A stretch of 64,000 nucleotides of DNA from Niabella soli DSM 19437 (GTDB lineage: Bacteria; Bacteroidota; Bacteroidia; Chitinophagales; Chitinophagaceae): assembly GCF_000243115.2 (NCBI RefSeq), contig NZ_CP007035.1:1116001-1180000 (forward strand), written 5' to 3'. The notes beneath the pieces are model-generated. The model searched no databases and was not told where the DNA came from. It saw only the letters and a program-made list of their open reading frames with translations. Shown in pieces: positions 33,820 through 61,711 of this stretch. Numbering within the stretch: the first letter of the stretch is position 1; each line of letters opens with the position of its first letter. A program made the translations under genes and the position numbers.

Positions 33820-34554
33820 ATGGGTCAGTTACGGTTTCATAAAACGCTGTTTGAGCAACTGCAAAATGAAATATTGCAATTGCAGGGCCTGCGCGCGCCG
33901 TTGGAAGCAGCGCAACTATCTGTAGGCCTTGATCGTTTGCAGGATGCTTTTCCCGACCGGGCATTCCCACAGAGTGCTGTTCATGAATTCATCAGTTGCA
34001 CGAAAGAAGCCGCAGCAGCCACTACCGGTTTTATGGCCGGCTTATTGGCCCCCCTGATGCACCGGGGCTGCTGTTTGTGGGTAAGCACCCGCCCCCACCC
34101 TTATCCCCCGGCTTTAAAATTGTTTGGGGTGGAGCCGGACCAGGTAATTTTTGTAACGGCCCGTAATGCCGTAGAGGCCTTATGGACCATAGAAGAAGGG
34201 CTGAAATGCCCGACACTGGCCGCCGTAGTGGGCGAAGTGCCGGAATTATCCTTTACCGCATCGCGGAGGTTGCAATTGGCCGTAGAGCAAAGCCACGTAA
34301 CAGGACTGCTGCATCGCTGCACCGTACAACCACCGGGTATAGTGGCCTGCACGGCACGCTGGCGTATAACACCGCTGGCCAGCAGTGCTGTGGATGACCT
34401 TCCGGGTGTAGGCTTCGCCCGATGGCAGGTGGAGCTGCTGAAAATACGCAACGGGAAGCCGGGAACTTGGCAGGTGCAATGGACGCCTCAGGGCTTTGCT
34501 GTAACAATTCCCGAAAAAGAGGCCCCACCATTGGTGATACAAAAAACAGGATAA
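33820..34554 (+). CDS. imuA: ImuA (SulA-like mutasome protein)
   Basis: A 244-residue protein of the ImuA family, RecA-fold partner of the ImuB/DnaE2 translesion mutasome. Features are the region AVHEFISCTKEAAAATTGF, CLWVSTRPHPYPPALKLFG and VFVTARNAVEALWTIEEGL, the last like the Walker B-adjacent helix. It lies directly before imuB, with one base between stop and start. In Actinobacteria and Proteobacteria the ImuA counterpart recruits ImuB to damaged DNA; here that is by family. Confidence 0.88.
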   Translation: MGQLRFHKTLFEQLQNEILQLQGLRAPLEAAQLSVGLDRLQDAFPDRAFPQSAVHEFISCTKEAAAATTGFMAGLLAPLMHRGCCLWVSTRPHPYPPALKLFGVEPDQVIFVTARNAVEALWTIEEGLKCPTLAAVVGEVPELSFTASRRLQLAVEQSHVTGLLHRCTVQPPGIVACTARWRITPLASSAVDDLPGVGFARWQVELLKIRNGKPGTWQVQWTPQGFAVTIPEKEAPPLVIQKTG

Positions 34555-34555
34555 C

Positions 34556-36052
34556 ATGGCTCGCTTTTTAAGTATATGGTTTCCCCATCTGATTACAGAC
34601 AGCATGATACGGCTGCGCCCGCAATTACGGCAACAGGATTTTGTGCTGACCGCGGAGCAACGGGGCCGCAGGGTTATTGAATGTGCCAGCCCCACCGCAA
34701 TAAAAAAAGGAATTATGCCGGGCATGGTAGCGGCGGATGCACGGGCCCTGCTGCCGGAGCTGCAACTCTTTAACAACAAACCCGGACAGGAAGCGCGTTT
34801 GCTGACAAAACTGGCGCACTGGTGCATACGGTTTACACCGGTGGCTGCTGTGGACCTCCCGGATGGCCTGCTGCTGGACATTAGCGGCTGCGCCCACCTT
34901 TGGGGAACCGAGGCGGCTTATCTGGAAACCATCCTTGCAAAATTGAAAGCCGCTGGCTATACCGCCCGCGGAGCGATTGCGGACACGGTAGGCGCCGCCT
35001 GGGCCCTGGCGCGGTATGGCGCCGAACAGTGGATAGCGCCTCCTGCCGCACATTGGCAGGACTTGTTATCCTTGCCGCCGGCAGCCTTACGACTGGAAGC
35101 GGAGGTCCTGGAGCGCATGAAAAAACTGGGGTTCTGCACCATTGGCCAGTTGGATGCGATTCCACGCCCCGTGCTGCGCCGGCGTTTTGGGCAACGATTA
35201 CTGTACCGGATGGAACAGGCGGCAGGCCTCGCTACGGAATGGATCGAACCCGTAACCCCGCCGGTACCCTTTCAGGCAACGCTCCCCAGCCTGGAACCGA
35301 TACGCACAGCAACAGGTATTGCCCTGGCATTGGATCAGTTGCTGGATAAACTATGCCTGCGCCTGGCAAAAGAAGAAAAAGGATTGCGCACCGCACTGTT
35401 CAAGGGATACCGGATTGATGGCAATCTGCAACAGGTAAGCATTGGTACCAATCGCCCGGTACGCAACAAAGCCCATTTGTTAAAACTGTTTGAGCAAAAA
35501 CTGGATTGCATTGCCCCCGGTCTGGGCATAGAGTTATTTATATTGGAAGCGCCTGTGGTGGAGCACTTCCCGGCACAACAGGAGGCGTTCTGGAAAACCC
35601 TTGGAGGCGATGAAGGTATTGAGCTGACCAACCTGCTGGACCGGATTGCCGGACGCATGGGCGCTGCCTGTATCCGCCGTTATTTACCGGCAGCGCATTA
35701 CTGGCCTGAACGCGCGCAATATCAGGCGGCTTCCTTAACCGCAAAAGCAGCTATCGGCTGGAAAACAGACCGCCCGCGCCCGGTGCAACTGTTGCCATTG
35801 CCCGAACCCATTAGCGTAACAGCGCCCATACCCGATTACCCGCCCATGCTGTTCCGGTATAAAAACGAGGTGCACAGAATACAAAAGGCCGACGGACCGG
35901 AGCGTATCGAGCAGGAATGGTGGCTGGAAGAGGGCCTGGTGCGGGATTATTATGTAGTAGAAGATGAAAAGGGTGCGCGGTACTGGCTGTTCCGTTCCGG
36001 CCGCTATGAAGAAGGAAAACCCCGATGGTACCTGCATGGATTCTTTGCGTGA
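34556..36052 (+). CDS. imuB: ImuB (Y-family polymerase homologue)
   Basis: A 498-residue Y-family DNA polymerase homologue. The N-terminus reads ARFLSIWFPHL where active enzymes have a metal-binding Asp pair, and the second motif is LDISGCAHLWG instead of a Ser-Ile-Asp-Glu type sequence. The loss of catalytic acids is typical of ImuB, which acts as a scaffold to bind the beta clamp and DnaE2. A helix-hairpin-helix region follows (IGQLDAIPRPVLRRRFGQ), then a little-finger region and a C-terminal extension with YWLFRSGRY. It lies next to imuA and is followed by dnaE2 164 bases on. Confidence 0.92.
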   Translation: MARFLSIWFPHLITDSMIRLRPQLRQQDFVLTAEQRGRRVIECASPTAIKKGIMPGMVAADARALLPELQLFNNKPGQEARLLTKLAHWCIRFTPVAAVDLPDGLLLDISGCAHLWGTEAAYLETILAKLKAAGYTARGAIADTVGAAWALARYGAEQWIAPPAAHWQDLLSLPPAALRLEAEVLERMKKLGFCTIGQLDAIPRPVLRRRFGQRLLYRMEQAAGLATEWIEPVTPPVPFQATLPSLEPIRTATGIALALDQLLDKLCLRLAKEEKGLRTALFKGYRIDGNLQQVSIGTNRPVRNKAHLLKLFEQKLDCIAPGLGIELFILEAPVVEHFPAQQEAFWKTLGGDEGIELTNLLDRIAGRMGAACIRRYLPAAHYWPERAQYQAASLTAKAAIGWKTDRPRPVQLLPLPEPISVTAPIPDYPPMLFRYKNEVHRIQKADGPERIEQEWWLEEGLVRDYYVVEDEKGARYWLFRSGRYEEGKPRWYLHGFFA

Positions 36053-36216
36053 AGTAATGCTGTTTCGATGGACAAAAAATTAATAACCATTAAAAAAAGT
36101 TTTGCCGGAAGGAGGGTAAATCAGACACGGTTGAAGACATCCTTTTCCGCCTTTCCGGCGAACCATGTGCCACAACTTTTGGTAACCCGATCTATGATGC
36201 TATCATAAGCTAAAAA

Positions 36217-39200
36217 ATGCATTATACGGAATTACAAATAACGACGAACTTCAGTTTCCTGCGCGGTGGATCGCACCCGGAAGAACTGGTACAATATGCG
36301 GCCGGACTGGGCTACACAACCCTTGCTATTACGGATCATAATACCCTGGCAGGTATTGTGCGCGCGCATGCCGCGGCAAGGAAAATTAAAGACAAAGATG
36401 GGAACCAAAAGATACACCTCATTCCTGCCTGCCGCCTGGACCTGGCTGATGGTCCGTCCCTGCTGGCTTATCCTACAGATATAAAAGCCTACGGCCGCCT
36501 CTCTGCCTTATTAACACTGGGAAACCTGCGTACTGAAAAAGGGAAATGTATTTTATACAAAGCCGATGTATACAGCCATGCCGAAGGCCTGCTTTTTATT
36601 ATGATCCCCCCGGATGCGCTGAATGCGCAATTTGATTTTGAAGCAACTTTTATAGAAGTGCTGAACGAGTATAAAAAAGAATTGGGCCATCGCCTGTACT
36701 TAGCGGCTTCATTTATTTACCAGGGACAGGATGTAAAAAGAATGCACCGTTTACATCAATTGTCTTTATTATACAAAGTACCGCTGGTAGCAGTTAATAA
36801 TGTGCACTACCATAGCCCTGCCCGCCGGGAGCTGCAGGACATCCTTACCTGCATCCGCGAGAAATGCACCATTCAAACAGCGGGTTATAAGCTCTGTCAG
36901 AATGCGGAGCGCTACCTGAAGCCGGAAAAAGAATTGCAGCGCCTGTTTCGCCATTATCCCGATGCGATAGCGCATACACAGGAAATTGTTACTGCCTGCC
37001 GGTTTTCGTTGGATGAGCTGCATTATGTGTATCCGGAAGAGCTTACCAGCGAAGGACGCACGCCTCAACAGGAGCTGGAGTTTTTAACCTGGCAGGGCGC
37101 CCGGGAAAAGTTCGGAACGGATATACCGGAAAAAATAAAAGCGGCTCTTAATGAAGAACTGGCATTTATAAAGCGAAAGAATTATCCTTCTTATTTTTTA
37201 ACCGTATATGATCTGGTGCGCTTTGCCCGCAGTAAGGACATCTTATGCCAGGGGCGCGGTTCTGCGGCTAATTCGGTGATCTGTTATTGTTTGGGCATTA
37301 CCGCTGTAGACCCTATACAAATAAAGTTATTGTTTGCCCGGTTTATGTCGGACGCGCGCGATGAACCACCCGATATTGATGTGGATTTTGAACATGAACG
37401 GCGGGAGGAAGTGATGCAGTATATCTATGAAAAATACGGACGGCACCGGGCAGGCATTGTTGCCACCGTTACCCAGGTGCATTGGAAGGGCGCCGTGCGG
37501 GATGTGGGCAAAGCGATGGGACTATCTGTAGATGCAGTAACGCATTTATCGAAATCGGCATATGAATTTACGGAGGAATGGTTCGCGGGCAAAGCTTTGT
37601 CCAGTGATGGTTTTAGCGCCAAAGACCCCCATCTGCTGAAAACGCTGGAATTAACCCAACAGTACATGGGATTTCCGCGGCAACTAGGGCAGCATACCGG
37701 CGGTTTTGTGATCACCCGGGGGCGGCTGTCCGACCTCTGCCCTGTCCTGAACGCGCGCATGAAAAACCGCACCTGTATTGAATGGAATAAAGACGATGTG
37801 GAAGCCCTGGGCTTTTTAAAAGTAGATGTGCTGGCCCTGGGCATGCTAACCTGCATCCGCAAAGCGTTTGACCTGGCCCGGCAGCATTATGGGCTTCAGT
37901 TAACGTTGGCCAATATTCCGCAAAAGGATAAAAAAGTCTATGAAATGATCTGTCATGCAGATACTATTGGGGTTTTCCAGATCGAAAGCCGTGCCCAGAT
38001 GTCGATGTTGCCGCGCTTAAAACCTGAGAACTTTTATGATCTGGTCATTGAAGTGGCCATTGTGCGGCCCGGGCCTATACAGGGTGATATGGTGCATCCT
38101 TATTTGAGAAGGCGCGAGGGGTTGGAAAAAGAAGTATATCCCAAAGAAGAATTGCGGGAAATATTGGGGCGTACCAAAGGCGTTCCCCTGTTCCAGGAAC
38201 AGGCCATGGAAATTGCCATTGTAGCTGCCGGTTTTACTCCGGCCGAAGCGGACGGCCTGCGCCGCAGTATGGCCACTTTTAAGGCACAGGGGCAGGTAAG
38301 CCAGTGGCGGGAAAAGCTGGTACAGGGAATGGTAAAAAGAGGTTATGAAGAGGAGTTCGCACTGCGTGTTTTTAAACAATTGGAAGGCTTTGGCTCTTAT
38401 GGTTTTCCGGAATCACATGCCGCCAGCTTCGCCTTGCTGGTATATGTTTCTGCGTGGATCAAATGCTATTATCCTGATGTGTTTGCCGCAGCGCTGTTAA
38501 ATAGTATGCCCATGGGGTTTTACCAGCCGGCGCAAATTGTGATAGACGCCCGTAAACACGGAGTGCCCGTATTACCGGTGGATGTTAATTATTCTGCCTG
38601 GGACAATACGCTTGAAAAACAATCCAAAGGTTTTTGTGCGGTGCGTCTGGGCTTTCGCCAGGTAAAGGGGTTGAAGGAAGATGATTGTTTGTCGCTGTTA
38701 GCACAGCGGAAAAACGGTTATACAAACATCCATCATCTGCATGATGCGGGCATGACGCAAGCAGCACTGGAACGACTGGCCGATGCTGATGCCTTCCGGT
38801 CGTTGGGGCTGGATCGCCGGCAGGCATTATGGGAAGTAACTGCCCTTGCCGACAAACCCCTTGGCGTATTTTCCGGACAGGCCTCACCAGGTGCAACGGA
38901 ACCTGTTATATCCTTGCCGGAATTAAGCCTGGCAGCACATGTATTGCAGGATTATAATAGTACTACCCTTTCCTTAAAAGCACATCCTGTAAGTTTTGCA
39001 CGACGAATGCTGACCGTTGCAAACTGTGCCCCTACGCAACACCTGTCGTTATGGCCTGATGGTGCTTTTGTACGGGTGGCCGGCCTGGTACTGGTACGAC
39101 AGCGGCCACAAACCGCTACCGGTGTCTGTTTTATCACCCTTGAAGATGAAACGGGCATTGCCAACCTGGTGGTATTTCATAAGGTATTTGAAAAATACCG

Positions 39201-39453
39201 CAGAGAGATCCTGCAATCACGACTATTAATGGTGACCGGCAAGCTGCAAAAAGAGGGTGAAGTGATTCACGTGGTGGTGCATAAATGTTATAATCAAAAT
39301 GTCTTGCTACAAGCAATGACTGAGACTGAAACGCCCGGCTTGCAATTCAATACAATCTCTTATATGAATGAAGCAACTCCCGGAGGGCAACAAAAAGAGT
39401 TGCTGCAAAAAGCAACGCAGGGTGAATTGTTCCCTTCAAGAAATTTTAAGTAA
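36217..39453 (+). CDS. dnaE2: Error-prone DNA polymerase DnaE2
   Basis: A 1078-residue C-family polymerase of DnaE2 length, shorter than the replicative DnaE. It has an N-terminal PHP domain beginning with TNFSFLRGGSHPEEL, the polymerase core with acidic residues in DIDVDFEHERRE (about residue 386), GRGSAANSVICYC, and a C-terminal OB-fold (VRVAGLVLVRQRPQTATGVC). It completes the ImuA-ImuB-DnaE2 mutasome, which makes errors while copying past lesions. The 164-base gap to imuB suggests a single transcript but no obvious second promoter. Confidence 0.95.
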   Translation: MHYTELQITTNFSFLRGGSHPEELVQYAAGLGYTTLAITDHNTLAGIVRAHAAARKIKDKDGNQKIHLIPACRLDLADGPSLLAYPTDIKAYGRLSALLTLGNLRTEKGKCILYKADVYSHAEGLLFIMIPPDALNAQFDFEATFIEVLNEYKKELGHRLYLAASFIYQGQDVKRMHRLHQLSLLYKVPLVAVNNVHYHSPARRELQDILTCIREKCTIQTAGYKLCQNAERYLKPEKELQRLFRHYPDAIAHTQEIVTACRFSLDELHYVYPEELTSEGRTPQQELEFLTWQGAREKFGTDIPEKIKAALNEELAFIKRKNYPSYFLTVYDLVRFARSKDILCQGRGSAANSVICYCLGITAVDPIQIKLLFARFMSDARDEPPDIDVDFEHERREEVMQYIYEKYGRHRAGIVATVTQVHWKGAVRDVGKAMGLSVDAVTHLSKSAYEFTEEWFAGKALSSDGFSAKDPHLLKTLELTQQYMGFPRQLGQHTGGFVITRGRLSDLCPVLNARMKNRTCIEWNKDDVEALGFLKVDVLALGMLTCIRKAFDLARQHYGLQLTLANIPQKDKKVYEMICHADTIGVFQIESRAQMSMLPRLKPENFYDLVIEVAIVRPGPIQGDMVHPYLRRREGLEKEVYPKEELREILGRTKGVPLFQEQAMEIAIVAAGFTPAEADGLRRSMATFKAQGQVSQWREKLVQGMVKRGYEEEFALRVFKQLEGFGSYGFPESHAASFALLVYVSAWIKCYYPDVFAAALLNSMPMGFYQPAQIVIDARKHGVPVLPVDVNYSAWDNTLEKQSKGFCAVRLGFRQVKGLKEDDCLSLLAQRKNGYTNIHHLHDAGMTQAALERLADADAFRSLGLDRRQALWEVTALADKPLGVFSGQASPGATEPVISLPELSLAAHVLQDYNSTTLSLKAHPVSFARRMLTVANCAPTQHLSLWPDGAFVRVAGLVLVRQRPQTATGVCFITLEDETGIANLVVFHKVFEKYRREILQSRLLMVTGKLQKEGEVIHVVVHKCYNQNVLLQAMTETETPGLQFNTISYMNEATPGGQQKELLQKATQGELFPSRNFK

Positions 39454-50823: not shown

Positions 50824-52194
50824 TCAGGACTGATGAAAGATCAATTTTGTATTTCCTACCCAGAAATAATCGCCTTCTTTTAAAGCCGCTTCTGTTGTAG
50901 CCGAAAGCCGGATGGTATTTTTATCAGTGTTAAAAAAGGTGCCGTTCTTGCTCGGCATTTTATCCTGCAAAAAATAAGTATAGCCTCCTTCAGCATCAGC
51001 CCTCCGGATGATCTGGCAATGATTTTTTGAGATAAACCGGTCGGAGGTTCTGATGCTAAAATCAGCAGTCTCCGCACCCGGCAGGTCGTTCCGGCGGCCA
51101 ATAGTACTATAGTCTTTTTCAATAAAAAACTGCTGGGCTTCGGTAAGTATATTAGACTGTACTTCAAGCGATGCACCTTTTTTCTCCGCAATGGTGGGAT
51201 CAATATCAATCACCGAACCGGGCGCTTCCTTCTCTGTGATCTCAATTTTTCCATCTAACCCGTTATAGAAAAACTGCGCTAACTCCCGCCCGGTTTTAAA
51301 GCGTTTGGCCGGTTCTTTTTCCAGACAGGTTTGTACCAGGAGTGCCAGCCATGCCGGAATGTCACAATCTTCTGCAGGTTCACTTGTTTTTTCCCGAAAG
51401 GCGTCCATCCTTGCGTCGCAAAGATCAGGCACCGGCGCGGCTTTATGCTTTTCCTCCAGCGCCGCCATTTCATTCGTTTGTTTATAATCTTTCACAGGAA
51501 ACGGAACCGCACCCGTCAACAGTTCATAGATCACCACCCCAAGGCTATAAATATCCGAAGGCGTGTCCACCAATGCTCCGCGCCATTTTTCGGGCGCCTT
51601 ATATTCGGCCATGCCATCTTCTTTCTTGCTATGACGTACGGCCGCCGGATCCACAAACGACAGCCCGAAATCGATCAATACATAGCGATACAACCCATCC
51701 TCATTTTTTGTACGGATAATATTTTTGGGATTGATGTCGTTGTGGATGATGGCATTCCTGTTGATAATGACCGAATCCGTTCCTTTACGTTGCGGCATAT
51801 TCCCTGATACATAATAATGATGGCAATAACTCAGTGCCGAGGCCATTTGAGCAATCACATCCATTGTATCTTCTATTGAAAAATATCCGTCGCGTTGTAA
51901 AAGGGTTTCCAGTGTTTCGCCATCCACAAACTCCATTTCAAGAGAAGGCTTATTATCCAATATATACTCGCCATATATTTTTACAATATTGGGATGGTCC
52001 AGTTGCTTTAGTATTTCCACTTCATTCTTGAAGTCGGTGTATTCTTTTGCCGTTTCGCTGGTCAGCACAAAATCCAGTTGTTTCAGCGCCACCACATGCT
52101 CAGGATCTTCTTTGCTTCGCGCTTTAAATACAGCAGAGAATCCGCCGTGGCCGATCACTTTTAAAATATCATATTTCGATGCTAATTCCTGCAT
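50824..52194 (-). CDS. Ser/Thr protein kinase with C-terminal FHA domain
   Basis: A 456-residue protein with an N-terminal Hanks-type kinase domain (about 8-305) and a C-terminal FHA domain (about 360-450). Kinase features are VIGHGGFSAVF, K38 in VALKQL, IIHNDINPKNII with Asn in place of the Arg of the usual HRD motif, DFG in IDFGLSF, and an APE-like YKAPEKW. The FHA domain has STIGRRND, ISKNHCQI and SKNGTFFN. There is no transmembrane helix. It is the last gene of the minus-strand cluster that also holds a second kinase, PP2C, two FHA-type genes and the SEDS-PBP fusion. Confidence 0.92.
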   Translation of the reverse strand: MQELASKYDILKVIGHGGFSAVFKARSKEDPEHVVALKQLDFVLTSETAKEYTDFKNEVEILKQLDHPNIVKIYGEYILDNKPSLEMEFVDGETLETLLQRDGYFSIEDTMDVIAQMASALSYCHHYYVSGNMPQRKGTDSVIINRNAIIHNDINPKNIIRTKNEDGLYRYVLIDFGLSFVDPAAVRHSKKEDGMAEYKAPEKWRGALVDTPSDIYSLGVVIYELLTGAVPFPVKDYKQTNEMAALEEKHKAAPVPDLCDARMDAFREKTSEPAEDCDIPAWLALLVQTCLEKEPAKRFKTGRELAQFFYNGLDGKIEITEKEAPGSVIDIDPTIAEKKGASLEVQSNILTEAQQFFIEKDYSTIGRRNDLPGAETADFSIRTSDRFISKNHCQIIRRADAEGGYTYFLQDKMPSKNGTFFNTDKNTIRLSATTEAALKEGDYFWVGNTKLIFHQS

Positions 52195-52245
52195 AGCTAA
52201 CTACACACTTGTTTAAACTTATTTTCAACTACACCCAACACCACC

Positions 52246-52358
52246 GTCATTCCGACAAGCCCGCCAAAGGCGGATGAGGAGGAATCTCAATAGTAAAGAA
52301 TGAGATTTCTCATCCTCCCCGGTCGTCCGGGCGGGGCTGACGCCGGATTCGAAATGAC
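52246..52358. repeat. Intergenic palindromic element between kinase-FHA and FHA genes
   Basis: The outer arms GTCATTCCGA (52246-52255) and TCGAAATGAC (52349-52358) are near-complements. Inside, GGATGAG and AATCTCA pair with TGAGATT and CTCATCC across 52272-52315. The CGTCATTnCGA ends are typical of dispersed intergenic repeats in this phylum. It occupies the whole gap of about 200 bases. Confidence 0.6.
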
Positions 52359-52395
52359 GATAATAAATAAAGATCGTATTTCATAAATACGCTAC

Positions 52396-53285
52396 TTACG
52401 GCAACAAATAAAATTCCAAAACAACCGTATCATTAAAACAGATAGAATCCCCGTTCTTTAAAATATGCGGCACGGCAGCGTTACCCAGGCTCACCCCTGT
52501 AAAATCATCCAATGAAGTATTAAAAATTTTTATTTTATGCGAAGGGTTATTTAAAAACCGGGAACGATAGATCTTATAGGCCCCTATTTCCTTATCGAAT
52601 ACGATCATGGCGTGAGAGCGGCTGATGAAATTATTGATCTTATATTGCGGCTCGGCCTTTTCCTCGATCCCAACAAAAGCTATATCATTATGGATCTTCG
52701 GTCCGTTCTCAATTTTCGGATCCTTACACCTGCCTATAAAATAATGTTTCCCGGTGGGCTCCAGGATATACTCCGGCTCCCAAAGAATACCTTCTGTAGC
52801 CACCACGCGGGCCTTTATTTTCCGGAGCGATTCTTTTGGCGTCAGCACCTCAACCCCTATGCCTTCGGTAATTACCGTTACTTTGTCCGCATATGGAGAC
52901 TCATGTACCAGCTCCAATAAAAGATCCTCTTTATACTGAATCCCGCGGGATTTAAATTCCCTTTTGATGCGGTTTATATAATTCCCATCCTTTATAAGCG
53001 TGGCCAGGCTTACGTTTTCAACCGCATTGTCCTTGTAAGCCGAATGAAATACCAGACCGGTAACCACCGCATCGCCATAGCCCAGCATGCGTATGGTATT
53101 ACTGATGGCGCCCAGGGTGATCTCTTTCAGTTCTTCAATATTATCAATACGCACAGCAGCAGGTGGCGGGCTGACTGGTTTCCTTTCTTCAACAGGCGCA
53201 TCCTTTTTTCTTCTTTGTCAAAAGAAGCATCATCCGCATTGAGCTTTTCCGAAAGTTGTTCCAACTTTTTCTTAAACCAGTTCAT
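52396..53285 (-). CDS. FHA-domain protein, frameshifted near the N-terminus
   Basis: In the given sequence the intact frame runs from a GTG at 53154, but the gene more likely starts at the ATG at 53285 (MNWFKKKLEQLSEKLNADD). The two frames join with one extra A in the A-run at 53204-53209, giving KKDAPVEERKPVSPPPAAV before the rest. The C-terminal FHA domain (starting about YFIGRCKDP, then ISRSHAMIVF) is preceded by a domain of unknown type (about 45-160). FHA domains bind phosphothreonine, so the protein is a likely substrate or partner of the cluster's kinases. It lies between the kinase-FHA and SEDS-PBP genes. Confidence 0.85.
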
Positions 53286-53348
53286 GTTGTAGGTTATTAG
53301 TTATAAGTTATCCGTTATCAGTCGTGAAATGTCAAACATCAAACCCGT

Positions 53349-53369
53349 CCGACCGGGTCGTCCGGTCGG
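53349..53369 (-). terminator. GC-rich hairpin after the SEDS-PBP gene
   Basis: CCGACCGG (53349-53356) and CCGGTCGG (53362-53369) pair around a five-base loop, 11 bases after the stop of the fusion gene. There is no T-tract, so it may only attenuate. The word GGTCGTCCGG recurs in the element at 52246. Confidence 0.4.
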
Positions 53370-53379
53370 GCATTTTGTA

Positions 53380-56300
53380 TTAAAAATATCCGGCATTTTG
53401 TAATTGTTTTAAAATAGCTACCGCAAGGGTCTTGGCATATTCTGAGTTACCAATTTCTTCGATCCGGATCGTAAACGCAATAGGCGCGCCCAATTTTGGC
53501 GAGTGCACAAAGAACGTGTACCAGGAATCCGTTACCCGCTTTAATTCCGTTTTATTATTTCCTGTTTTTACAATCTTATCCCGCTCCGGGCTCCCTGTTT
53601 TTCCATGCACTTCCAGTCCTGATGCTGCGGCTACCTTAACCGATTGCTCCCGCATAAAATCACTGATCAACGGGGCTATTTGTGGTTGTTTGGTAATGGT
53701 TACCGGACTTGGAGCAATCAATTGGTTACTCCAGCTTTTAAATAGAAAGCGCGAAGGGTTCAGTATTCCGCTGTCGGACAGCGCCCCCGACATTTTTGCC
53801 ATTTGCAACGGCGTTACCATCAGTTCGCCCTGACCCCAGGCAATGTCGGAATAGCGCGACTGCAGCCGCTGCCGCGTATTCATCAGCCGCTGATTATTGA
53901 AAATATTTTTTCCTTTTGCAACAAACTGATCCCATTCCTTGAAATATTTTTCACTGTTATAGTCCTCCGGACGTTGAAAGTGAAAACCGCCACGGTTCAG
54001 AATATTGATCCCCAGCGCATCATAAAGATTAAATAAAGAAGATTCCAGATTCTTGTCATTGGCCAGTTTGATGAAATACACGTTGCTGGAGCGCACAATG
54101 GCGGTGCGCATGTCCACATTCATATTTTCCGGTTCCCCCTTGTGGATCGCTTCATCCGGATAAACAAAATAGCTAAACTGTGCCGCCGCAGGGCCATACT
54201 GATTCATAGCGGCTGTTGCATCCAGTATTTTGATCGTAGAGCCGGGTCTTGAATTAAAGGTGATCCCGAGGTCTTGCGGTACCACAACGCGATCCTGGAA
54301 GATCTGTTTGAAAATCGTACGGTAATCCGACTGTTCTATATTACTGATCAGTTTCAGATCCTTGTAAGACGGTGCCGGGTTGGATGCCGAGGCCAAAACA
54401 TCTCCCGTTTTTGCATTAACGGCTACAACCGATGTTCTGAATTGATTAGAAGCCGCTGTGCCCTGGATCACCGCATTGATCCGCTCATTCAGGGCTACAT
54501 CCAGCGAAAGCTGGATATCCTTATTCTTATTATTTTGCTGTTCTACCCACTTGCCTTCCATTCCTTCTTTGAGGATCGGCACCAACGCACTGTAATTATA
54601 ATTAACGAGCTCTGACTCCCGCATGGTTACCGGCAGGAAGCGGTCTTCCTTGTACCGGTCGGATGTTTTTTGTTTGGTGGTATAGGAAACGTCAAAGCCC
54701 TTCAACATTGTGTAATGCCGGTATTCCGCGGAATAACCAGCTTCTTCTTCATTCGCGATCTCCTTGTTGTAATCGCCCAGCCAGAACAGCAGATCCGGCC
54801 CGAAGGGATAATAGCGGTGCTGTTCCCGCTTCAATTGCTCTTCATACAGATCTGCATTGGCGCCCAACGGAATCAGGCGGCTCTTTTGCTTTTCAAACGC
54901 CGTTTTGCTGGAGGTCGCTAATAAAACGCCATTGCGATCGTAAATATTCCCCGAGCGGATCTGTCGCAAAAAAATACCAATGCGCGGGTTATAGCTATAT
55001 TGCCAGGCTCCTTTCCGGTTGAGCACCAACGCGGGTTTTACAATATATTCATTGGATTTATACTGATACCAGAACAAGCTGCCGATAAAAAAAAGCAGTA
55101 CGGCAAAAAAGGTTAATATGGCATAGGCATTTACATTATCATACCGCTCCTTTACATATTCCATTTCCAGCGCATCTCCCCTTTCGTTGGAGATAATGAG
55201 CACCCATATAAAAGCGAGCAATGTGATGATGATACCTGCATTGCCCTTACTTAAAAACGGAACCGAGATGCCCGTCATCGGGATCAATCCTAACGTTCCC
55301 GCAGTAATAAGGAAAAACTGGAGCATCGTCGCAATGGCAATGCCCGCAGCAAAATAAAACAGGAAGGGCTTTCCCGTTCTTCTTGCAGCAAGCAGCGTGC
55401 GGTAAGTAAGTAAGCCAAAAGCAAGAAAGATCGCGATCAAAGCCACCAGGCCCAATTCTTCCCCAATACTTTCCAGGATCATATCCGTATGATAGGCCGG
55501 CATTACACTGGCATAGCCTTTTCCCAGGCCCTGTCCAAAAAAACCGCCGGCATTTAACGACCAAACCCCCTGTGCTACCTGGTCGCCTCCCATGAGCTGA
55601 TTCTCCCATATATCTTTAAACATTCCGTTACGATCGGCCAGGCGCTGTGTAAACTCAAAAGGCAAGGCCGCCAGGAGAATAAAAGAAGAAATGATCAGCA
55701 CAATAAAAAAAATGGATTCATACCGCTTTTTAAAGAACGCGTAGGCAAAAGTGCCGATAGTGGCTATTAGCGCAACCAACGGCAGGAAATCATGCTGCGG
55801 CGAATTGATCCCTATTGAAGTGATCATTAATACTACCGCATAGATAACGGCAGCCAGCACCATGGGGAAAAATTCATTCTTTGCAAAGGAATAGAAAAAA
55901 AGAAAGGTGAGACATAAGACAACCGCGGGGCCCAGATCGCCCAATGCTGCGTAAATGCAAAGCAAAAAACCAAACAACAACAGCATCTTAATATTATTCT
56001 GTGTCAGCCAGCGGTTGTCGGGGATATTGCGCAGGTATTCCGATTTGACGGCAAAATAAGCCGCAAAAAAAACGACCATCAGCAGTTTGGATAATTCACT
56101 TACCTGGAACCCGAACAAATTTACTTTTACCCCACTGCCCTCCGGTCCGGTGCCGGCAACAAACAGGGCCAATAGCAGGAGAATGGACAACAGCAACCAG
56201 GAATAACCCCTGGGCGCTTTTAATTTATTTGCCTCAGGTAAAAAATTATAGACCGGGTCGAACCATTTCGAATGATAAAAGCGATTCACCGGATTGTCCT

Positions 56301-57426
56301 TAAGAAAGAACAAAAGCACCGATGCTACCAACAATACGCCCGTTGCACATCTTGCCATTCCCGTTCCATGGATAAAGTCGCGCAGCGGGTCCTGCATGCT
56401 ATACAAAGCCAATACCCCCGTACCGGAAAGAAAGAACAATAAAGGAAGGATAAACTGGTCGCTCCGGTAATTTTTTAACCACAATACAACGTGAAAGACC
56501 CAGAACGACAACAGGAACAGGGCCAGGGTTTTGAAATATTCCTTTTTAAAATCATCCGGTGTCCGAACGGTAAAAAACTTATCATTTTTGATCTGGCGAA
56601 ACTCTGTCCGGTCCAGCACGCGTATCCTGTGAGGCGCCCCTTTGAATTCAAAGGTCTCATCGCCTTTTATAGCCACAACACCTTTCGCCGGTCCAAAATC
56701 ATAGCCCGGTTTTATGGCGATCACCCGATAGTTGCTCTCCTTTTTAAGATTATAAAACTCATAGGATCCGTTGGGATTGGTTCGCGCGAAAAATGCCTCC
56801 GGCTCGTCGCCGTTTTTTACGCTTAGCGTATCTAAATAACCCGATGGAAATTCTTCCGTTAATTTCACCAGCACGCCGCCGGCTGCCGTCTCCGGCTGTT
56901 GCACTTCCTGTGTAAAATGTATTTTCCCTTTAACCGATAAAGATGTTTTTTCATTTTGCACGGCAACCTGGTCCGGAAATTTTTGAGGATCTTTTGATTC
57001 CCCGGCATAAAGGGCACTGTCCATATCAAGCCTTGTGATCGCGTTCAGGAAGCGGAGCTTGCCCGATTCACTGGACGTATTTAAAAATTCAGTGGCGGGG
57101 ATCATCAGGCTGTTTTTGTTCAAAGCGCCCAGGTTCGGCAAGGAACCTTCTTTATCGATGATGCCCTTTATTTTCCCGGCAATAAACTGGATATAGTTTG
57201 CATCCGTGAAATAGCCTCCTTTGGTAAGGATCTGTACCAGCACCGGGGTTTTTACGGGAGCTACAAGATTCAGCATCTTACCATTCGTATAACCCTGATC
57301 GGCTTCCGCAAAAGCCGCTCTTTTATTTTGATAAAAGACAAAGGCCATCCCGGCCAGCAACAGCGTTACGCAAAGCAGCAGGAGGCGTTCTATTCTGCGC
57401 GGGTATAATTTTATTTTCTTGTTCAT
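53380..57426 (-). CDS. SEDS glycosyltransferase - class B PBP fusion
   Basis: A 1348-residue membrane protein joining two peptidoglycan enzymes. An N-terminal helix (about 13-32) and an extracytoplasmic region (35-290) precede a polytopic SEDS domain (about 295-745). This has NLFGFQVSELSKLL (RodA-like), LGDLGPAVVL and FGQGLGKGYASVMPAYHTDM, with the catalytic Asp of the HTD motif near 645. A further helix (765-785) precedes the transpeptidase (790-1348), with active Ser in RPGSTIKIL (about 1063), VRSSNVYFI (about 1112) and the KTG motif in VHGKTGSPE (about 1277). The parts normally occur as two partners, RodA/PBP2 or FtsW/PBP3. The stop-start gap to the small membrane gene is 3 bases. Confidence 0.95.
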   Translation of the reverse strand: MNKKIKLYPRRIERLLLLCVTLLLAGMAFVFYQNKRAAFAEADQGYTNGKMLNLVAPVKTPVLVQILTKGGYFTDANYIQFIAGKIKGIIDKEGSLPNLGALNKNSLMIPATEFLNTSSESGKLRFLNAITRLDMDSALYAGESKDPQKFPDQVAVQNEKTSLSVKGKIHFTQEVQQPETAAGGVLVKLTEEFPSGYLDTLSVKNGDEPEAFFARTNPNGSYEFYNLKKESNYRVIAIKPGYDFGPAKGVVAIKGDETFEFKGAPHRIRVLDRTEFRQIKNDKFFTVRTPDDFKKEYFKTLALFLLSFWVFHVVLWLKNYRSDQFILPLLFFLSGTGVLALYSMQDPLRDFIHGTGMARCATGVLLVASVLLFFLKDNPVNRFYHSKWFDPVYNFLPEANKLKAPRGYSWLLLSILLLLALFVAGTGPEGSGVKVNLFGFQVSELSKLLMVVFFAAYFAVKSEYLRNIPDNRWLTQNNIKMLLLFGFLLCIYAALGDLGPAVVLCLTFLFFYSFAKNEFFPMVLAAVIYAVVLMITSIGINSPQHDFLPLVALIATIGTFAYAFFKKRYESIFFIVLIISSFILLAALPFEFTQRLADRNGMFKDIWENQLMGGDQVAQGVWSLNAGGFFGQGLGKGYASVMPAYHTDMILESIGEELGLVALIAIFLAFGLLTYRTLLAARRTGKPFLFYFAAGIAIATMLQFFLITAGTLGLIPMTGISVPFLSKGNAGIIITLLAFIWVLIISNERGDALEMEYVKERYDNVNAYAILTFFAVLLFFIGSLFWYQYKSNEYIVKPALVLNRKGAWQYSYNPRIGIFLRQIRSGNIYDRNGVLLATSSKTAFEKQKSRLIPLGANADLYEEQLKREQHRYYPFGPDLLFWLGDYNKEIANEEEAGYSAEYRHYTMLKGFDVSYTTKQKTSDRYKEDRFLPVTMRESELVNYNYSALVPILKEGMEGKWVEQQNNKNKDIQLSLDVALNERINAVIQGTAASNQFRTSVVAVNAKTGDVLASASNPAPSYKDLKLISNIEQSDYRTIFKQIFQDRVVVPQDLGITFNSRPGSTIKILDATAAMNQYGPAAAQFSYFVYPDEAIHKGEPENMNVDMRTAIVRSSNVYFIKLANDKNLESSLFNLYDALGINILNRGGFHFQRPEDYNSEKYFKEWDQFVAKGKNIFNNQRLMNTRQRLQSRYSDIAWGQGELMVTPLQMAKMSGALSDSGILNPSRFLFKSWSNQLIAPSPVTITKQPQIAPLISDFMREQSVKVAAASGLEVHGKTGSPERDKIVKTGNNKTELKRVTDSWYTFFVHSPKLGAPIAFTIRIEEIGNSEYAKTLAVAILKQLQNAGYF

Positions 57427-57429
57427 GAA

Positions 57430-57663
57430 TTAGTATCCTTGCAGCGCCTTTTTACGGGAGCTATCTCTAAAAATGGTATCTGTTGCATTAATAAGGGAGT
57501 CTGTTCTGTGTAAATGCGCAGTGTCAGGAGCAGCAATACTGTCTTTTTTTAATAGGGTGGAGTCAACTGCCGGGGGCGCTAGTGCCTCCTTTCGGAAGAA
57601 AGATCCTGTACCGCTCCAGTTTACCAGAAACCCTACTACGAACGCGATGATTACCGGAACCAT
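57430..57663 (-). CDS. Small single-pass membrane protein
   Basis: A 77-residue protein with one hydrophobic segment (about 2-18) followed by a polar tail rich in Asp, Ser and Thr. No family is recognised. It lies 3 bases before the SEDS-PBP gene and 2 bases after the PP2C gene, so it is translationally coupled to both, which argues that it is real. It may be an assembly factor or kinase target in the cell-wall complex; this is inference from position alone. Confidence 0.7.
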   Translation of the reverse strand: MVPVIIAFVVGFLVNWSGTGSFFRKEALAPPAVDSTLLKKDSIAAPDTAHLHRTDSLINATDTIFRDSSRKKALQGY

Positions 57664-57665
57664 CC

Positions 57666-58559
57666 TTATTTTTTTTTACTGATTGTTGCACTTGTTGTTT
57701 CTTGGTTCATAATTGTTGCTGTTTGCGCATTTTCGGCTTCAATGGGGACTTCGATCGTATTTTTGACCGATCGTTTTCTTCCCGGTTTTTTAGGAGCGGC
57801 GTAGGTGGCCAATACAACAGTAATATTGTCTTTCCCTCCCAATGCATTGGCCTTATCAATTAATTGCTGCGCTTTTTGCTGCAGTGTATTATTTGCCGAG
57901 AGGATAAGCACCATCTCTGCCTGGGTTACCAGGTCTGTTAATCCGTCGGAACAGAATAAGGCGATATCGTCCGGAAGGAAACTATGTTCCCCGATATCAA
58001 AATAGTTGTCGGAATCATTTGCATCCAGCAATAACTCCCCCACCATTTTATTGATCTCATTGCGACGCGGATGCTGCATGGCTTCCTCTTCTGTAAGGTA
58101 ACCGCTATCCTCTTTCATTCCTACAGAAGAATGATCCCGCGTTATTTTCAGCATAGCGCCATTCCGGTATACATATCCCCGGCTGTCGCCAACGTGCGCC
58201 ACATACATTAACTCTTTATCTGCATCCAGCACGGCTACAGAAAGCACGCAGCTCATCCGGCCCAGCTCAACGTTCTGCCGCCGGGCTTCATAAATAGCAT
58301 TATTAGCCGCTACGGCCGCTTCTTTCAGTAATTGCAGTGGTGCGCCAAAACTAAAGTTCTGGAAATAGTCTTCAATCGTTTGCTTGGAGATCAACGCGGC
58401 TTCGGCGCCTCCTTCATAACCGCCCACGCCGTCAATAGCACCAATAAGCGCCCGGGATGCTCTGCTCCACAGCGCAGGAACGGCAATGAAATTATCTTCA
58501 TTCTCTTCCCGCTTGCGGCCCAGGTCTGTTTGCGCATATACGTCGATCTTTCTGTTCAT
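57666..58559 (-). CDS. PP2C-family protein phosphatase
   Basis: A 297-residue metal-dependent Ser/Thr phosphatase, the counterpart of PstP. The motifs are NEDNF, GAIDGVGGYEGG (usual DGMGG), VAHVGDSRGYVY, LFCSDGLTDLV and GGKDNITVVL. A Lys/Arg-rich tail and a Thr/Ser-rich end follow the catalytic domain (about 250-297), with no transmembrane helix. It should reverse phosphorylation by the two kinases of the cluster. Confidence 0.95.
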   Translation of the reverse strand: MNRKIDVYAQTDLGRKREENEDNFIAVPALWSRASRALIGAIDGVGGYEGGAEAALISKQTIEDYFQNFSFGAPLQLLKEAAVAANNAIYEARRQNVELGRMSCVLSVAVLDADKELMYVAHVGDSRGYVYRNGAMLKITRDHSSVGMKEDSGYLTEEEAMQHPRRNEINKMVGELLLDANDSDNYFDIGEHSFLPDDIALFCSDGLTDLVTQAEMVLILSANNTLQQKAQQLIDKANALGGKDNITVVLATYAAPKKPGRKRSVKNTIEVPIEAENAQTATIMNQETTSATISKKK

Positions 58560-58731
58560 AATTTCACTTTTGATTGTAACAGAAATACAAGGATGATAAA
58601 TAATAACATTACCGCGCCGATCATGGGTTCATTTTTAGTTGTAAAGTTTATTGGAAGTTGATTAATTGAAAAGTTAACAGGGGTAATCCTTTTTAAACAT
58701 TTCAACCTGTAAACTTGTAAACGCACAACCC

Positions 58732-59685
58732 TCACACCATCGCTTTAAAATCCAGTTGAAAAATGCCACACACGATGGTCGATTCACTTTTTAACGGGTG
58801 CCATACCGGGTTTTCCCCTACGCGGCTCACCTCCAGCCGCTGTTCGTTTACAAAAGCCTCGGCAAACAAAGCAATGTAAAAAGCCCGCGCGTTATCATCA
58901 TACCGGATCATCACATGTTCTTTTTGCAGGCTGCCACTGGGCTCATTAATGCACAACAACGTGGCCGTGCTGGTCATCCCTTCGATCGCCTTTGTAATTT
59001 TCAGTTGCTTTTCCCGCATCGGAAAACTATACCGCTGTTTATTCAGAACAAATTGTACGGTAGCTAATTTATCCGGCGCTGCGCTATTCCTGGAACCGGC
59101 AGGCGCGCCCTGCATTGTTGTAAAATCGCCCAGCAGGTCTTTATTAAATTTGACCCTGAAATGCCCTTTGGATAAAATATCAATATTGCTAAACGTGTTC
59201 GGGTTCAGATCGTATTTGGAATATTTAGAATGTTTGCTGCTAACCGAAACTTTTATATGTTCTGAAGAGAGTTCCGACCACGACTTTTCGGAGGTAGGTG
59301 TGCTAACTACCTGGATGGTTCCGGGCTCGATTTCGCTATTATCAATCCCCCGCTCCGCCGGGCAGTACTGAAAATCCCAATAGCTGCCAATGGGCTCATA
59401 CCGGGGGTACTGGGTCTTGCGCTCATTGATATACTCATAAAATTCATCCAGAATGCCCTCGGTAATGCCCGCCAGGCGTAGTTCGGCATGCTTGTAATCT
59501 TCGGGCCGCATCAGGATCAGATAGCTGCAATCATACATCATGCGCTTGTTAAACGATTCGCGTTCTACCGTTTCCTTAAAGGAGACCAGGATCTGATCCA
59601 CCAACGCCTGGTTGGTTAAACGTACCGTTTCTTCTTCTTCCTCTTCTCCATCGGGCAGCAGCCATTTTTTTAATTTATCAAACAT
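58732..59685 (-). CDS. FhaA-like protein with degenerate C-terminal FHA fold (putative)
   Basis: A 317-residue cytoplasmic protein. The N-terminal 140 residues (FDKLKKWLLPDG, YDCSYLILMRPEDYKHAEL, YPRYEPIGSYWDFQY) recall the FhaA N-terminal domain of actinobacteria in length and rhythm. A middle part (about 140-200) is Ser/Thr-rich and could be a phosphoacceptor region. The C-terminal part has RYSFPMREKQLKI and KEHVMIRYD, in which the FHA-type Ser-x-x-His is not intact. Position between the first kinase and the phosphatase strengthens the reading. Similarity is by eye. Confidence 0.65.
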   Translation of the reverse strand: MFDKLKKWLLPDGEEEEEETVRLTNQALVDQILVSFKETVERESFNKRMMYDCSYLILMRPEDYKHAELRLAGITEGILDEFYEYINERKTQYPRYEPIGSYWDFQYCPAERGIDNSEIEPGTIQVVSTPTSEKSWSELSSEHIKVSVSSKHSKYSKYDLNPNTFSNIDILSKGHFRVKFNKDLLGDFTTMQGAPAGSRNSAAPDKLATVQFVLNKQRYSFPMREKQLKITKAIEGMTSTATLLCINEPSGSLQKEHVMIRYDDNARAFYIALFAEAFVNEQRLEVSRVGENPVWHPLKSESTIVCGIFQLDFKAMV

Positions 59686-59747
59686 AAAACCGGTTTATTT
59701 TTTTGCATTAATTTCTAAACCATTAAGAAGTTGGGAAAATCAGGTCA

Positions 59748-61253
59748 TCACAATTTTTCTATACGCCGTTCCACGATGCGTACGATCTTCATTTCCTTAT
59801 CAAAGACCATCGATACATCTATATTATAGGGGATCCAGTCATCTGCATCATTTTGTTTTATTTTATAAAGCATATTAAAATCAACGTACGTATTACCGTT
59901 GGGATTGTGCGTAAAGGTATAGGACGAATTGGGAATATCCGCGTCCGTAAAGCGCCATTTACCATGATACGCGGCACATTCTTTCTGGATCTCGGATAAA
60001 GATTCATCGCTTTTATTATAATACTGATCTACCGTATCATGAAAAAAACGCGATAAACTGCCACAATCCTGGCGGGTACGGTAATAATCGTTGATCTTGT
60101 TTTTTATATCCGTTTCCTGTTTGCCCAGGTCTTCACTGGTTATTACCTGCGAGGAAGTCATGGTATCTGGGTGGGTTTGCTCCGTATCCGGCGCAGCCGT
60201 TTCCGGCAAAGGAAGGTCATTGGTTTTGGGCGCCGGTCGGGCGATGGGTTTCTCCGTTCGTTTTTTGGAAGTCTCTTTATTGGAACCAAATAACCGGTCC
60301 TTGTTAATCGCCAGTAACACCAATACCGTTACGATAAAAAATACCAGGAAGATATAGCCCAGGCGATTGGGATCTTTCCGTTTTCCTGATGAAACAGGTA
60401 GTACCGGCCGGCTGTTGCGAACCGGCTCCGCCGGAACAGGTGTAAACAGCATGGTTTCATCATTTCTTGTTTCGTTGGCGCCGATCTTTCGTAACTCCCT
60501 TCGCCCTTCCGGTTTTTTGCCCAGGTAATCGCCCAATAGCCCGTTCCAGGGCACGGGCAGCAATGCCGTATCCAATGGCTTGCGCACAATATTTTCCTGG
60601 ATCTCAAAATCAGAAATTTTAGACGCATCATAGGGCGCTACTCCTGACACCAAATGATAAAAAGTAACCGCGAGCGAATATATATCGGTTTTATAGGACA
60701 AGGTTTTTACGTCATATACCTGCTCCGGGCTCATGTACATGAGCGTTCCCATTCTTGACCCCGTTTGGGTAACCGTAACGTTATCCCGCAGCTTGGCGAT
60801 GCCAAAATCAAGGATCTTTATTTTCCCCTCTTCGGTGATAAAAAGATTGGAAGGTTTTATATCCCGGTGAATGATGTTCTTGCGATGCGTGTATTGTAAG
60901 GCATCCACGAGGTCGTTCCACCAGTTGATCAATTGCTGGTTGGTAAACTGTGCTCCTTCTTTCATCAGGAGGGAAAGGTCCTTTCCCTCCAGGTATTCCA
61001 TGATCATGCAGGGACAGCCGTTCACAGTAGAATAATCGTAAATATTCCGGATATGCGGATGGTTCAACTGCACCATCAGGCGGGCCTCATTTTCAAACCG
61101 GCTCACGATCTCCGGTGTTCCGCAAAAGCGCTGTTGCAATACCTTTACGGCCGCGGGTTTTTGCAGATAATTTTCTGCATACCAAACCTCGGCCATGCCT
61201 CCTTCACCCAGTTTGTATTTTAATTTGTAGCCGTTAATGGTCGAATTCTCCAT
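59748..61253 (-). CDS. Transmembrane Ser/Thr protein kinase (PknB-like, no PASTA)
   Basis: A 501-residue kinase. The N-terminal Hanks-type domain (about 8-265) has LGEGGMAEVW, K37, HRDIKPSN, DFG in ILDFGIAKL and MSPEQV. A juxtamembrane stretch, one transmembrane helix (about 300-319) and an extracytoplasmic C-terminal part of about 180 residues follow. That part has no PASTA repeats, the muropeptide-binding modules of PknB; it resembles an SnoaL/nuclear-transport-factor-like fold at best. It is the first gene of the cluster and is read from the promoter at 61316. Confidence 0.93.
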   Translation of the reverse strand: MENSTINGYKLKYKLGEGGMAEVWYAENYLQKPAAVKVLQQRFCGTPEIVSRFENEARLMVQLNHPHIRNIYDYSTVNGCPCMIMEYLEGKDLSLLMKEGAQFTNQQLINWWNDLVDALQYTHRKNIIHRDIKPSNLFITEEGKIKILDFGIAKLRDNVTVTQTGSRMGTLMYMSPEQVYDVKTLSYKTDIYSLAVTFYHLVSGVAPYDASKISDFEIQENIVRKPLDTALLPVPWNGLLGDYLGKKPEGRRELRKIGANETRNDETMLFTPVPAEPVRNSRPVLPVSSGKRKDPNRLGYIFLVFFIVTVLVLLAINKDRLFGSNKETSKKRTEKPIARPAPKTNDLPLPETAAPDTEQTHPDTMTSSQVITSEDLGKQETDIKNKINDYYRTRQDCGSLSRFFHDTVDQYYNKSDESLSEIQKECAAYHGKWRFTDADIPNSSYTFTHNPNGNTYVDFNMLYKIKQNDADDWIPYNIDVSMVFDKEMKIVRIVERRIEKL

Positions 61254-61315: not shown

Positions 61316-61345
61316 CAAACTTACTTTAAATATTTCTAATCCCAA
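61316..61345 (-). promoter_or_regulatory. Promoter of the kinase/FHA/SEDS-PBP cluster
   Basis: On the minus strand TTG (61345-61343), 19 bases, TAAGTTTG (61323-61316). This is a complete Bacteroidota promoter; transcription would begin near 61309, about 56 bases before the first kinase's ATG. Confidence 0.7.
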
Positions 61346-61711
61346 TGTTTTAGCTTGTCCGCCAGGACGCAAAAGCCCTGCTTATTTGTAGAATAGCTTC
61401 CCAAACCCAAATTTTCATTGCGTCTTCGCGCCATTGCAGTTAAAACATATAACAATATCCCTGGTTAATACCCCGTTTTGTCCAATGTAACCTGTAAAAT
61501 AACGGCTCCTTTATGGAGGAAGCTCAAAATTTGTTATAAAAACGGTAAATGATGTGATTAAGACGGTGAATGACGGGCTTTTGTTTTGTCATTCATCGCC
61601 AGGGTTCTTAAAAGAAAACGGGCGTGTTTAAATGTTTTAATACAAACAAGTGTTCTGTTTCAATAATATTTAAATAACTGAAAAGATCATAAAATAAAAA
61701 TCAATTTCACT

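Follow-up and report, generated by a model that had tools for sequence, protein, structure and literature searches.

A kinase, phosphatase and FHA gene cluster around a single-chain SEDS-PBP protein in Niabella, probably an accessory phospho-regulated wall synthase of Bacteroidota

We analyzed a 64,000-nucleotide stretch (hereafter the window) of the genome of Niabella soli DSM 19437 (Chitinophagaceae), a single contig of 4.7 Mb. The window contains a cluster of minus-strand genes for two Ser/Thr kinases, a PP2C phosphatase, an FhaA-like protein, a further FHA protein and a single polypeptide that joins a SEDS protein to a penicillin-binding protein (PBP) transpeptidase. We put a probability of roughly 0.6 on the cluster being an accessory, horizontally spread, phospho-regulated peptidoglycan synthase under kinase, PP2C and FHA control, a reading drawn from sequence and predicted structure. 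It is carried by a gene order that is conserved in relatives far beyond chance, by the placement of the SEDS half beside actinobacterial RodA in the best tree, by the retained catalytic residues of both halves of the fusion, by the joint occurrence of the FhaA-like and SEDS-PBP genes, and by a natural fusion of PP2C to SEDS-PBP.

Gene content of the cluster

A Pfam scan of the cluster proteins found a kinase, PP2C, SEDS with transpeptidase, and kinase with FHA (Table 1). A preliminary description of this DNA, made from its letters alone, had listed seven genes. Its six long open reading frames (ORFs) are present at the stated places, all on the minus strand, and the SEDS-PBP is a single chain as it had proposed, with PF01098 (1.4e-35, 123.3 bits) and PF00905 (1.4e-19) in one protein. 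The list needed correction in three places: the "small gene" following PP2C is not a gene of its own, a microprotein ORF preceding PP2C had been missed, and the FHA gene extends further at its N-terminal end, in another frame. The FHA gene encodes 286-314 amino acids in 15 of the 16 other Niabella loci, and in the window its first ~26 codons (from 53285) are frame-shifted. The change of frame sits at an A-tract (near 53205); the closest relative of the window cluster, L038, with 92% identity in the SEDS-PBP, is in frame there. Because two A-tract differences occur in one cluster, the other being in the PP2C gene, base-calling error is suggested for the frame breaks, with a true break or slippage as alternatives.

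Table 1. Features of the cluster in the window
Feature	Position	Strand	Support
K1, Ser/Thr kinase, one transmembrane segment (residues 298-316), extracytoplasmic C-terminal region without PASTA	59748..61253	-	PF00069 8.2e-45
FhaA-like protein, N-terminal alpha/beta domain and degenerate FHA fold	58732..59685	-	AlphaFold2 model, Foldseek, hhalign
Microprotein ORF, 22 amino acids, single hydrophobic segment; stop overlaps PP2C start (ATGA, 4 nucleotides)	58556..58624	-	
PP2C phosphatase catalytic domain, metal-binding motifs present	57666..58559	-	PF00481 1.9e-13
Transmembrane helix and tail of PP2C, out of frame with PP2C in the window genome	57430..57663	-	77-amino-acid ORF
SEDS-PBP fusion, 1348 amino acids: first transmembrane segment, extracytoplasmic insert (carboxypeptidase-regulatory-like), actinobacterial-type SEDS, transpeptidase	53380..57426	-	
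FHA protein	52396..53285	-	ORF 52396-53154; N-terminal part (53285-~53210) out of frame with it
K2, Ser/Thr kinase without transmembrane segment, C-terminal FHA domain	50824..52194	-	PF00069 4.4e-42, PF00498 3e-09
Promoter-like site, Bacteroidota type (TAnnTTTG at -7 side), ~60 nucleotides upstream of K1	61316..61346	-	one mismatch

Distribution and conserved order

Among 394 Chitinophagaceae genomes, the FhaA-like protein was found in 59 (E up to 1e-3) and the N-terminus of the SEDS-PBP in 58 (E up to 1e-10). Both occur together in 56 genomes, the FhaA-like protein alone in three, the SEDS-PBP alone in two, and neither in 333. The fusion is present in 15 of the 101 Chitinophagaceae genera searched. 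When 395 genomes from the whole phylum were searched with the N-terminal profile, 31 had a match. In 15 of these it is the fusion (E 3.4e-36 or better), and in the other 16 (E 2e-6 to 1e-3) other ORFs match part of the insert region only. The five named loci with a SEDS-PBP relative in the genome collection are all from Niabella, and no relative was found among 264 pattern matches in viral contigs.

We fetched 39 Chitinophagaceae loci. The FhaA-like gene occurs in 37 of these, the remaining two (L050, L052) starting at a contig edge inside the SEDS-PBP; the SEDS-PBP is present, whole or in part, in 38, L087 being a contig of 4.6 kb. Since the loci were picked by a match to either the FhaA-like protein or the SEDS-PBP, the second gene is the informative one. 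The SEDS-PBP is in 19 of the 20 loci chosen by the FhaA-like protein, these having been picked from the 59 genomes with that protein so as to cover a range of genera. At the core of the cluster the genes run FhaA-like, PP2C, SEDS-PBP, FHA. The place of the kinase varies: in Niabella it precedes the FhaA-like gene, and elsewhere it is found either separating PP2C from SEDS-PBP or following FHA. The preliminary description had given a lack of neighbourhood conservation in relatives as grounds for refuting it; the conserved order was in fact found in the fetched relatives both within the Chitinophagaceae and beyond, and the spread of the cluster across that family and the phylum led us to reject the idea that it is a local oddity of Niabella.

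One copy is on a 137-kb plasmid of Spirosoma oryzicola (L132, NZ_CP089545.1), in the order FHA, PP2C, kinase, kinase, FtsW/RodA/SpoVE, FHA; the gene table of the plasmid gives these parts generic names. Genes of a two-component system and a set of curli genes are found close to this copy. A quick tree of 34 fused proteins had families f18 and f25 nested in the Chitinophagaceae diversity, with three changes of family label forced by starred branches; it carries a long-branch warning near Niabella, and the Spirosoma plasmid row was labelled f25 from similarity. Transfer between families would be the simplest reading of this tree, with deep paralogy and loss as the alternative, and we tentatively attribute the distribution to horizontal transfer.

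The cluster also has structural variants. In another class of the phylum (G587, L129:10262-14416), PP2C (6.1e-09), SEDS (1.2e-49) and transpeptidase (7.3e-37) are found in one ORF of 1384 amino acids, flanked by an FhaA-like gene and an FHA gene. This natural PP2C-SEDS-PBP fusion is a more direct link between phosphatase and synthase than gene proximity. Upstream of the same cluster is a kinase of 837 amino acids with WD40 repeats (L129:2604-5117), and its FHA protein (L129:14479-15753) has an N-terminal HEPN_Swt1 domain (7.4e-22). Another genome, G540, has a second, divergent SEDS-PBP fusion (L194:5165-9088) besides the FhaA-linked one, with no FHA gene match in its 14.8-kb contig.

The SEDS-PBP fusion

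SxxK, SxN and KTG motifs are present in all 17 fused PBP halves examined, one of which has KSG, and the SEDS catalytic Asp is kept in 18 of 18 fused SEDS. The carboxypeptidase-regulatory-like domain of the insert scores above cut-off in L131 and below it in the window protein. Besides the fusion, the window genome encodes separate FtsW-type and RodA-type SEDS.

The window SEDS-PBP matched three actinobacterial RodA at 1e-25 to 2e-24 and a clostridial FHA-linked SEDS at 2e-24. Two Listeria SEDS scored 1e-15 and 4e-14, and the two SEDS of its own genome 4e-13 and 1e-11; the Tsukamurella RodA was left out of this scoring, the gene caller having missed its ORF. A phylogenetic tree of 47 SEDS rows, in which the fused rows were thinned and canonical L023 and L160 (long branch) were dropped, separated 18 fused SEDS, four actinobacterial RodA and the SEDS of Monoglobus from 24 canonical FtsW and RodA with support of 100/99. 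A quick tree that included L023 and L160 contained the same split, with a value of 99 in the Shimodaira-Hasegawa-like approximate likelihood ratio test (SH-aLRT). Whether actinobacterial RodA or the Monoglobus SEDS is the nearer relative of the fused SEDS has support of just 83/72. Rows L026 and L027, whose label of Bacteroidota FtsW was a guess from neighbouring genes, group with RodA in the SEDS trees.

The PBP halves form one clade (100/100), and PbpA joins a clostridial PBP instead. An earlier PBP tree had contained wrong or very long rows; the final one is without L030, L151, L140 and two fused rows.

FhaA-like and FHA proteins

The FhaA-like protein of the window had no FHA match by sequence in the Pfam scan, and PF00498 matches 11 of the 26 members of its family at E up to 1. 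A C-terminal FHA fold is supported by Foldseek on its AlphaFold2 (AF2) model (mean predicted local distance difference test score, or pLDDT, of 81.3), which gave many FHA matches including the Rv0020c FHA domain, 2lc1 (E 1.1e-4); the N-terminal domain of Rv0020c was not found among the 50 Foldseek matches listed. A search of solved structures with the FhaA-like profile returned five weak matches, three of them to FHA proteins.

The N-terminal domain family of FhaA (PF12401, FhaA_N) had no match in any of the window family's 26 members (E up to 1) or anywhere in the window genome (E up to 10). L131, from another class of the phylum, has next to its fusion an FhaA-like protein that reaches 27.4 bits with FhaA_N, above the cut-off of 25, and that of L129 scores 17.7 bits, below it. 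By hhalign, the window family matched the L131/L129 group at 98.8% over 266 columns, and its direct comparison with Tsukamurella FhaA was weak, at 14%. Homology of the window family to FhaA is therefore argued across these intermediate Bacteroidota proteins, which act as a bridge, and not from direct comparison. A passage in PMC11898655 describes the N-terminal domain of FhaA as having no similarity to any known protein.

The second FHA protein, taken as its 252-amino-acid ORF, was below the Pfam cut-off for FHA (0.062); its AF2 model has a mean pLDDT of 83.4 and is identified by Foldseek as an FHA fold.

Kinases

The HRD and DFG motifs of K1 are intact, and K2 has HND instead of HRD. The best solved relatives of the K1 profile include StkP, PknA and PknB. 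The preliminary description had noted the absence of PASTA repeats, and Pfam indeed finds none in either window kinase; the model NF033483 gives K1 232.9 bits against a cut-off of 450. A Thr-rich segment of the K1 activation loop is invariant in all six aligned Niabella orthologues, as is Thr267, which makes both candidate sites for reading by FHA domains.

PP2C and a putative microprotein

What had been described as a separate small membrane protein is the transmembrane tail of PP2C. Of the 15 further Niabella loci that have PP2C, 12 carry the two as one ORF of 361-376 amino acids, and the three exceptions (L047, L053, L054) are assemblies with frame damage in the cluster. As the tail is continuous with PP2C in relatives and places the transmembrane helix in the same chain, we rejected it as a gene of its own. 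The single-ORF Niabella proteins consist of the catalytic domain, one transmembrane helix and a short tail; the helix was called in nine of 11 relatives, the others, L046 and L048, having none at the threshold applied. PP2C is longer (437-498 amino acids) in five loci from other genera, with a transmembrane helix and a longer extracytoplasmic part. The family has the layout of PstP (PP2C domain, one transmembrane segment, extracytoplasmic tail). In the window, an A-tract difference near 57670 leads to a stop before the transmembrane part, leaving the tail out of frame. The window protein contains the metal-binding motifs of PP2C phosphatases.

We searched 47 loci for a hydrophobic ORF of 15-45 codons within 320 bases around the PP2C start. 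Such an ORF, of 22-33 residues and directly before PP2C, was found in 41 loci including the window, and a wider upstream stretch adds the Spirosoma plasmid (42 of 47). It is absent from L091 and L093 even after widening, the FhaA stop being near the PP2C start there, and from the frame-damaged assemblies L047 and L053. L129 gave no match in this search, and a less hydrophobic short ORF can be read there by eye. The calls in L049, L104 and L105 begin at a start codon further upstream and so give a longer ORF. The control run, again with 41 of 47 before PP2C, gave matches before the FhaA-like gene in two of 35 cases, before SEDS-PBP in two of 40, before FHA in none of 39 and in 15 of 940 shuffled-base regions; one of the two matches before SEDS-PBP (L131) is the same site, since L131 is without PP2C. 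The C-termini are kept by lineage, with RHFKNLPR, HFxDIKNTHxxNG, or Q[ST]K close to the end. A comparison of 13 Niabella copies shows variation at 13 of 21 sites for codon position 1, 9 for position 2 and 17 for position 3, a pattern that suggests a modest coding signal.

Promoter and transcript

The preliminary description had proposed a shared transcript from one strong promoter at 61316. The site is present, with one mismatch to the Bacteroidota promoter consensus. As evidence for a promoter it is weak, being one of 20 such matches in the window where 12.1 are expected (one of 100 shuffles has as many), and sigma-70-like sites occur about as often as chance predicts (20, with 21.6 expected). 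A gap of 94 nucleotides with terminator-like hairpins separates SEDS-PBP from the FHA gene, such hairpins numbering 23 in the surrounding region against 12.3 expected, and the FHA gene and K2 are 201 nucleotides apart. A single transcript is hypothetical.

Proposed function and alternatives

In the mechanism that we propose, the SEDS half of the single chain would polymerize lipid II and the transpeptidase half would cross-link the glycan. K1, and K2 with it, would phosphorylate threonines on themselves and on their partners, including the synthase, and the membrane-anchored PP2C would remove these phosphates. The FhaA-like protein and the second FHA protein would read the phospho-marks and couple them to the synthase, and the microprotein would probably belong to the kinase, phosphatase and synthase assembly as a small membrane subunit. 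The activity of the accessory SEDS-PBP would thus be set by a kinase/phosphatase switch read by FHA domains. We favour such a switch because PknA/B, PstP and FhaA control wall growth in Actinobacteria, according to passages in PMC6554272 and PMC11898655, and because engineered RodA-PBP2 fusions are functional in E. coli, as reported in PMC6207328.

Several findings weigh against a phospho-regulated peptidoglycan synthase related to the actinobacterial one. Two genes of the window copy, those for PP2C and the FHA protein, carry frame breaks. The f34 loci L131, L193 and L195 hold FhaA-like, SEDS-PBP and FHA genes with no kinase or PP2C match in the 20 kb fetched; the kinase and PP2C of these genomes may lie elsewhere or be absent. 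Hydropathy predicts 14 segments in the window SEDS-PBP (one on each side of the long extracytoplasmic insert, about eleven in the SEDS and one before the PBP), whereas 13 are needed for a transpeptidase on the outside. Because 13 segments would put that domain where it is needed, one of those predicted is likely to be no helix. The PBP half does not branch as the sister of PbpA. In the best tree the SEDS half lies beside actinobacterial RodA, and approximately unbiased (AU) tests of trees that force it with Bacteroidota RodA (p 0.080) or FtsW (p 0.056) reject neither, so these groupings are disfavoured, not excluded. Finally, 17 of 18 fused SEDS, that of the window among them, have no Trp at a conserved Trp column in the second extracytoplasmic loop. 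By our own alignment this column corresponds to W138 of E. coli FtsW, and a passage in PMC8765783 reports that changing W138 abolishes function. L194 keeps a Trp at this column, where the alignment is unsure, and the RodA of the window genome itself (L003:1471-2814) likewise is without it.

The replaced active-site Trp, together with the large insert bearing a carboxypeptidase-regulatory-like domain and the patchy accessory distribution, could mean that phospho-control has been recognized correctly and that the fused enzyme polymerizes a different lipid-linked glycan or remodels the wall in a special state, such as in resting cells or under stress. The retained D,D-transpeptidase motifs imply peptidoglycan, the SEDS catalytic Asp is kept as well, and we regard such a specialized role as unlikely. 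The cluster could instead have been assembled by convergence, with kinase, PP2C and FHA genes joining a Bacteroidota SEDS-PBP pair independently and the actinobacterial likeness being coincidental. The position of the PBP half, the non-significant AU tests, the different places of the FHA and kinase genes and the weak direct match to Tsukamurella FhaA would all agree with this. Against it stand the 100/99 SEDS grouping, the finding that the best-scoring SEDS relatives, among the loci scored, are actinobacterial RodA and clostridial FHA-linked SEDS, and an FhaA_N score above cut-off in a Bacteroidota cluster (L131); independent assembly therefore seems improbable to us. A mobile defence or conflict module, in which kinases, phosphatase and FHA proteins act on invaders with the wall enzyme as effector or passenger, is very improbable. 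The plasmid copy, the patchy distribution and kinase-domain matches to PADLOC models could be cited for it. The PADLOC matches are to the two kinases alone, with none for the other four of six proteins scanned, and no toxin or nuclease domain is found among the window proteins. As no system-specific PADLOC protein other than the kinases was matched, we rejected a defence system.

If the accessory, phospho-regulated synthase is real, it would be a removable test system for kinase, phosphatase and FHA control of SEDS-PBP in Gram-negative Bacteroidota that have a separate RodA and FtsW. The natural SEDS-PBP and PP2C-SEDS-PBP fusions would offer single-chain targets for structure and biochemistry. 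The best-ranked open-access literature contained no account of this cluster, of natural SEDS-PBP fusions or of FhaA in Bacteroidota, and PMC6554272, in the part concerned, treats phospho-control of wall synthesis by PknB, PstP and FhaA as a matter of Actinobacteria and partly Firmicutes. A broader proposal, for and against which we find the case evenly balanced, is that a third SEDS lineage exists besides FtsW and RodA, FHA-linked and phospho-wired and common to Actinobacteria, some Clostridia and Bacteroidota. In the Bacteroidota it would have turned into a mobile wall synthase made as a single chain, accompanied by a dedicated kinase and phosphatase, by phosphothreonine readers and by a previously undescribed membrane microprotein, with the phosphatase incorporated into the same polypeptide in one lineage.

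Other genes of the window

Three further groups of genes were observed away from the cluster. A three-gene block (33820-39453) encodes a protein without a Pfam match, a Y-family polymerase (IMS) and a DNA polymerase III alpha homologue, and resembles an imuA-imuB-dnaE2 mutagenesis cassette. Two small SET-domain genes overlap in tandem at 12588-13368. Three alike, secreted-looking proteins of ~350 amino acids without a Pfam match are encoded at 7573-8625, 14962-16011 and 16042-17082.

Comparison with known systems

Kinase, PP2C and FHA proteins also act together in type VI secretion, as PpkA, PppA and Fha. The VI_FHA model gives just 26.7 bits against a cut-off of 120.25 and no secretion domain is found among the window proteins, and the score led us to reject a type VI secretion regulator. 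The RodA-PBP2 and FtsW-FtsI pairs share with the fusion the SEDS and class B PBP domains with their motifs kept, but they are encoded by separate genes, lie on the other side of the SEDS tree and have no kinase/FHA cluster. A closer likeness is seen in the clostridial trio of Monoglobus (L143), where FHA, SEDS and PBP genes are adjacent and the SEDS is on the same side of the 100/99 branch; its SEDS and PBP are separate genes, however, and no kinase or PP2C is annotated in 14.5 kb.

The actinobacterial locus, represented by Tsukamurella (L142), has the order DUF3662-FHA, FHA, PP2C, RodA-type SEDS, PBP, kinase, PASTA kinase. The records of L142 (402 kb), L134 (Acetoanaerobium, 2.6 Mb) and L144 (Nonomuraea, 11.9 Mb) are plasmid records resembling chromosomes or pieces of them. 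Like the fhaA-fhaB-pstP-rodA-pbpA-pknA-pknB locus, to which the preliminary description had matched it, the Bacteroidota cluster has an FhaA homologue, a PP2C, a RodA-class SEDS followed by a PBP, an FHA protein and two kinases. The match holds for the SEDS half, which groups with RodA, and for FhaA, where the L131 protein, scoring above the FhaA_N cut-off, provides the bridge; it fails for the PBP, which is not with PbpA, for PASTA repeats, and for a direct FhaA_N match in the window protein. The Bacteroidota cluster differs further in that SEDS and PBP, together with a large insert, form a single polypeptide, in having a kinase-FHA fusion and a microprotein ORF, and in being accessory, once plasmid-borne and beside a separate RodA, with its FHA and kinase genes placed differently. 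We consider it a homologous, rebuilt and probably mobile version of the actinobacterial phospho-control.

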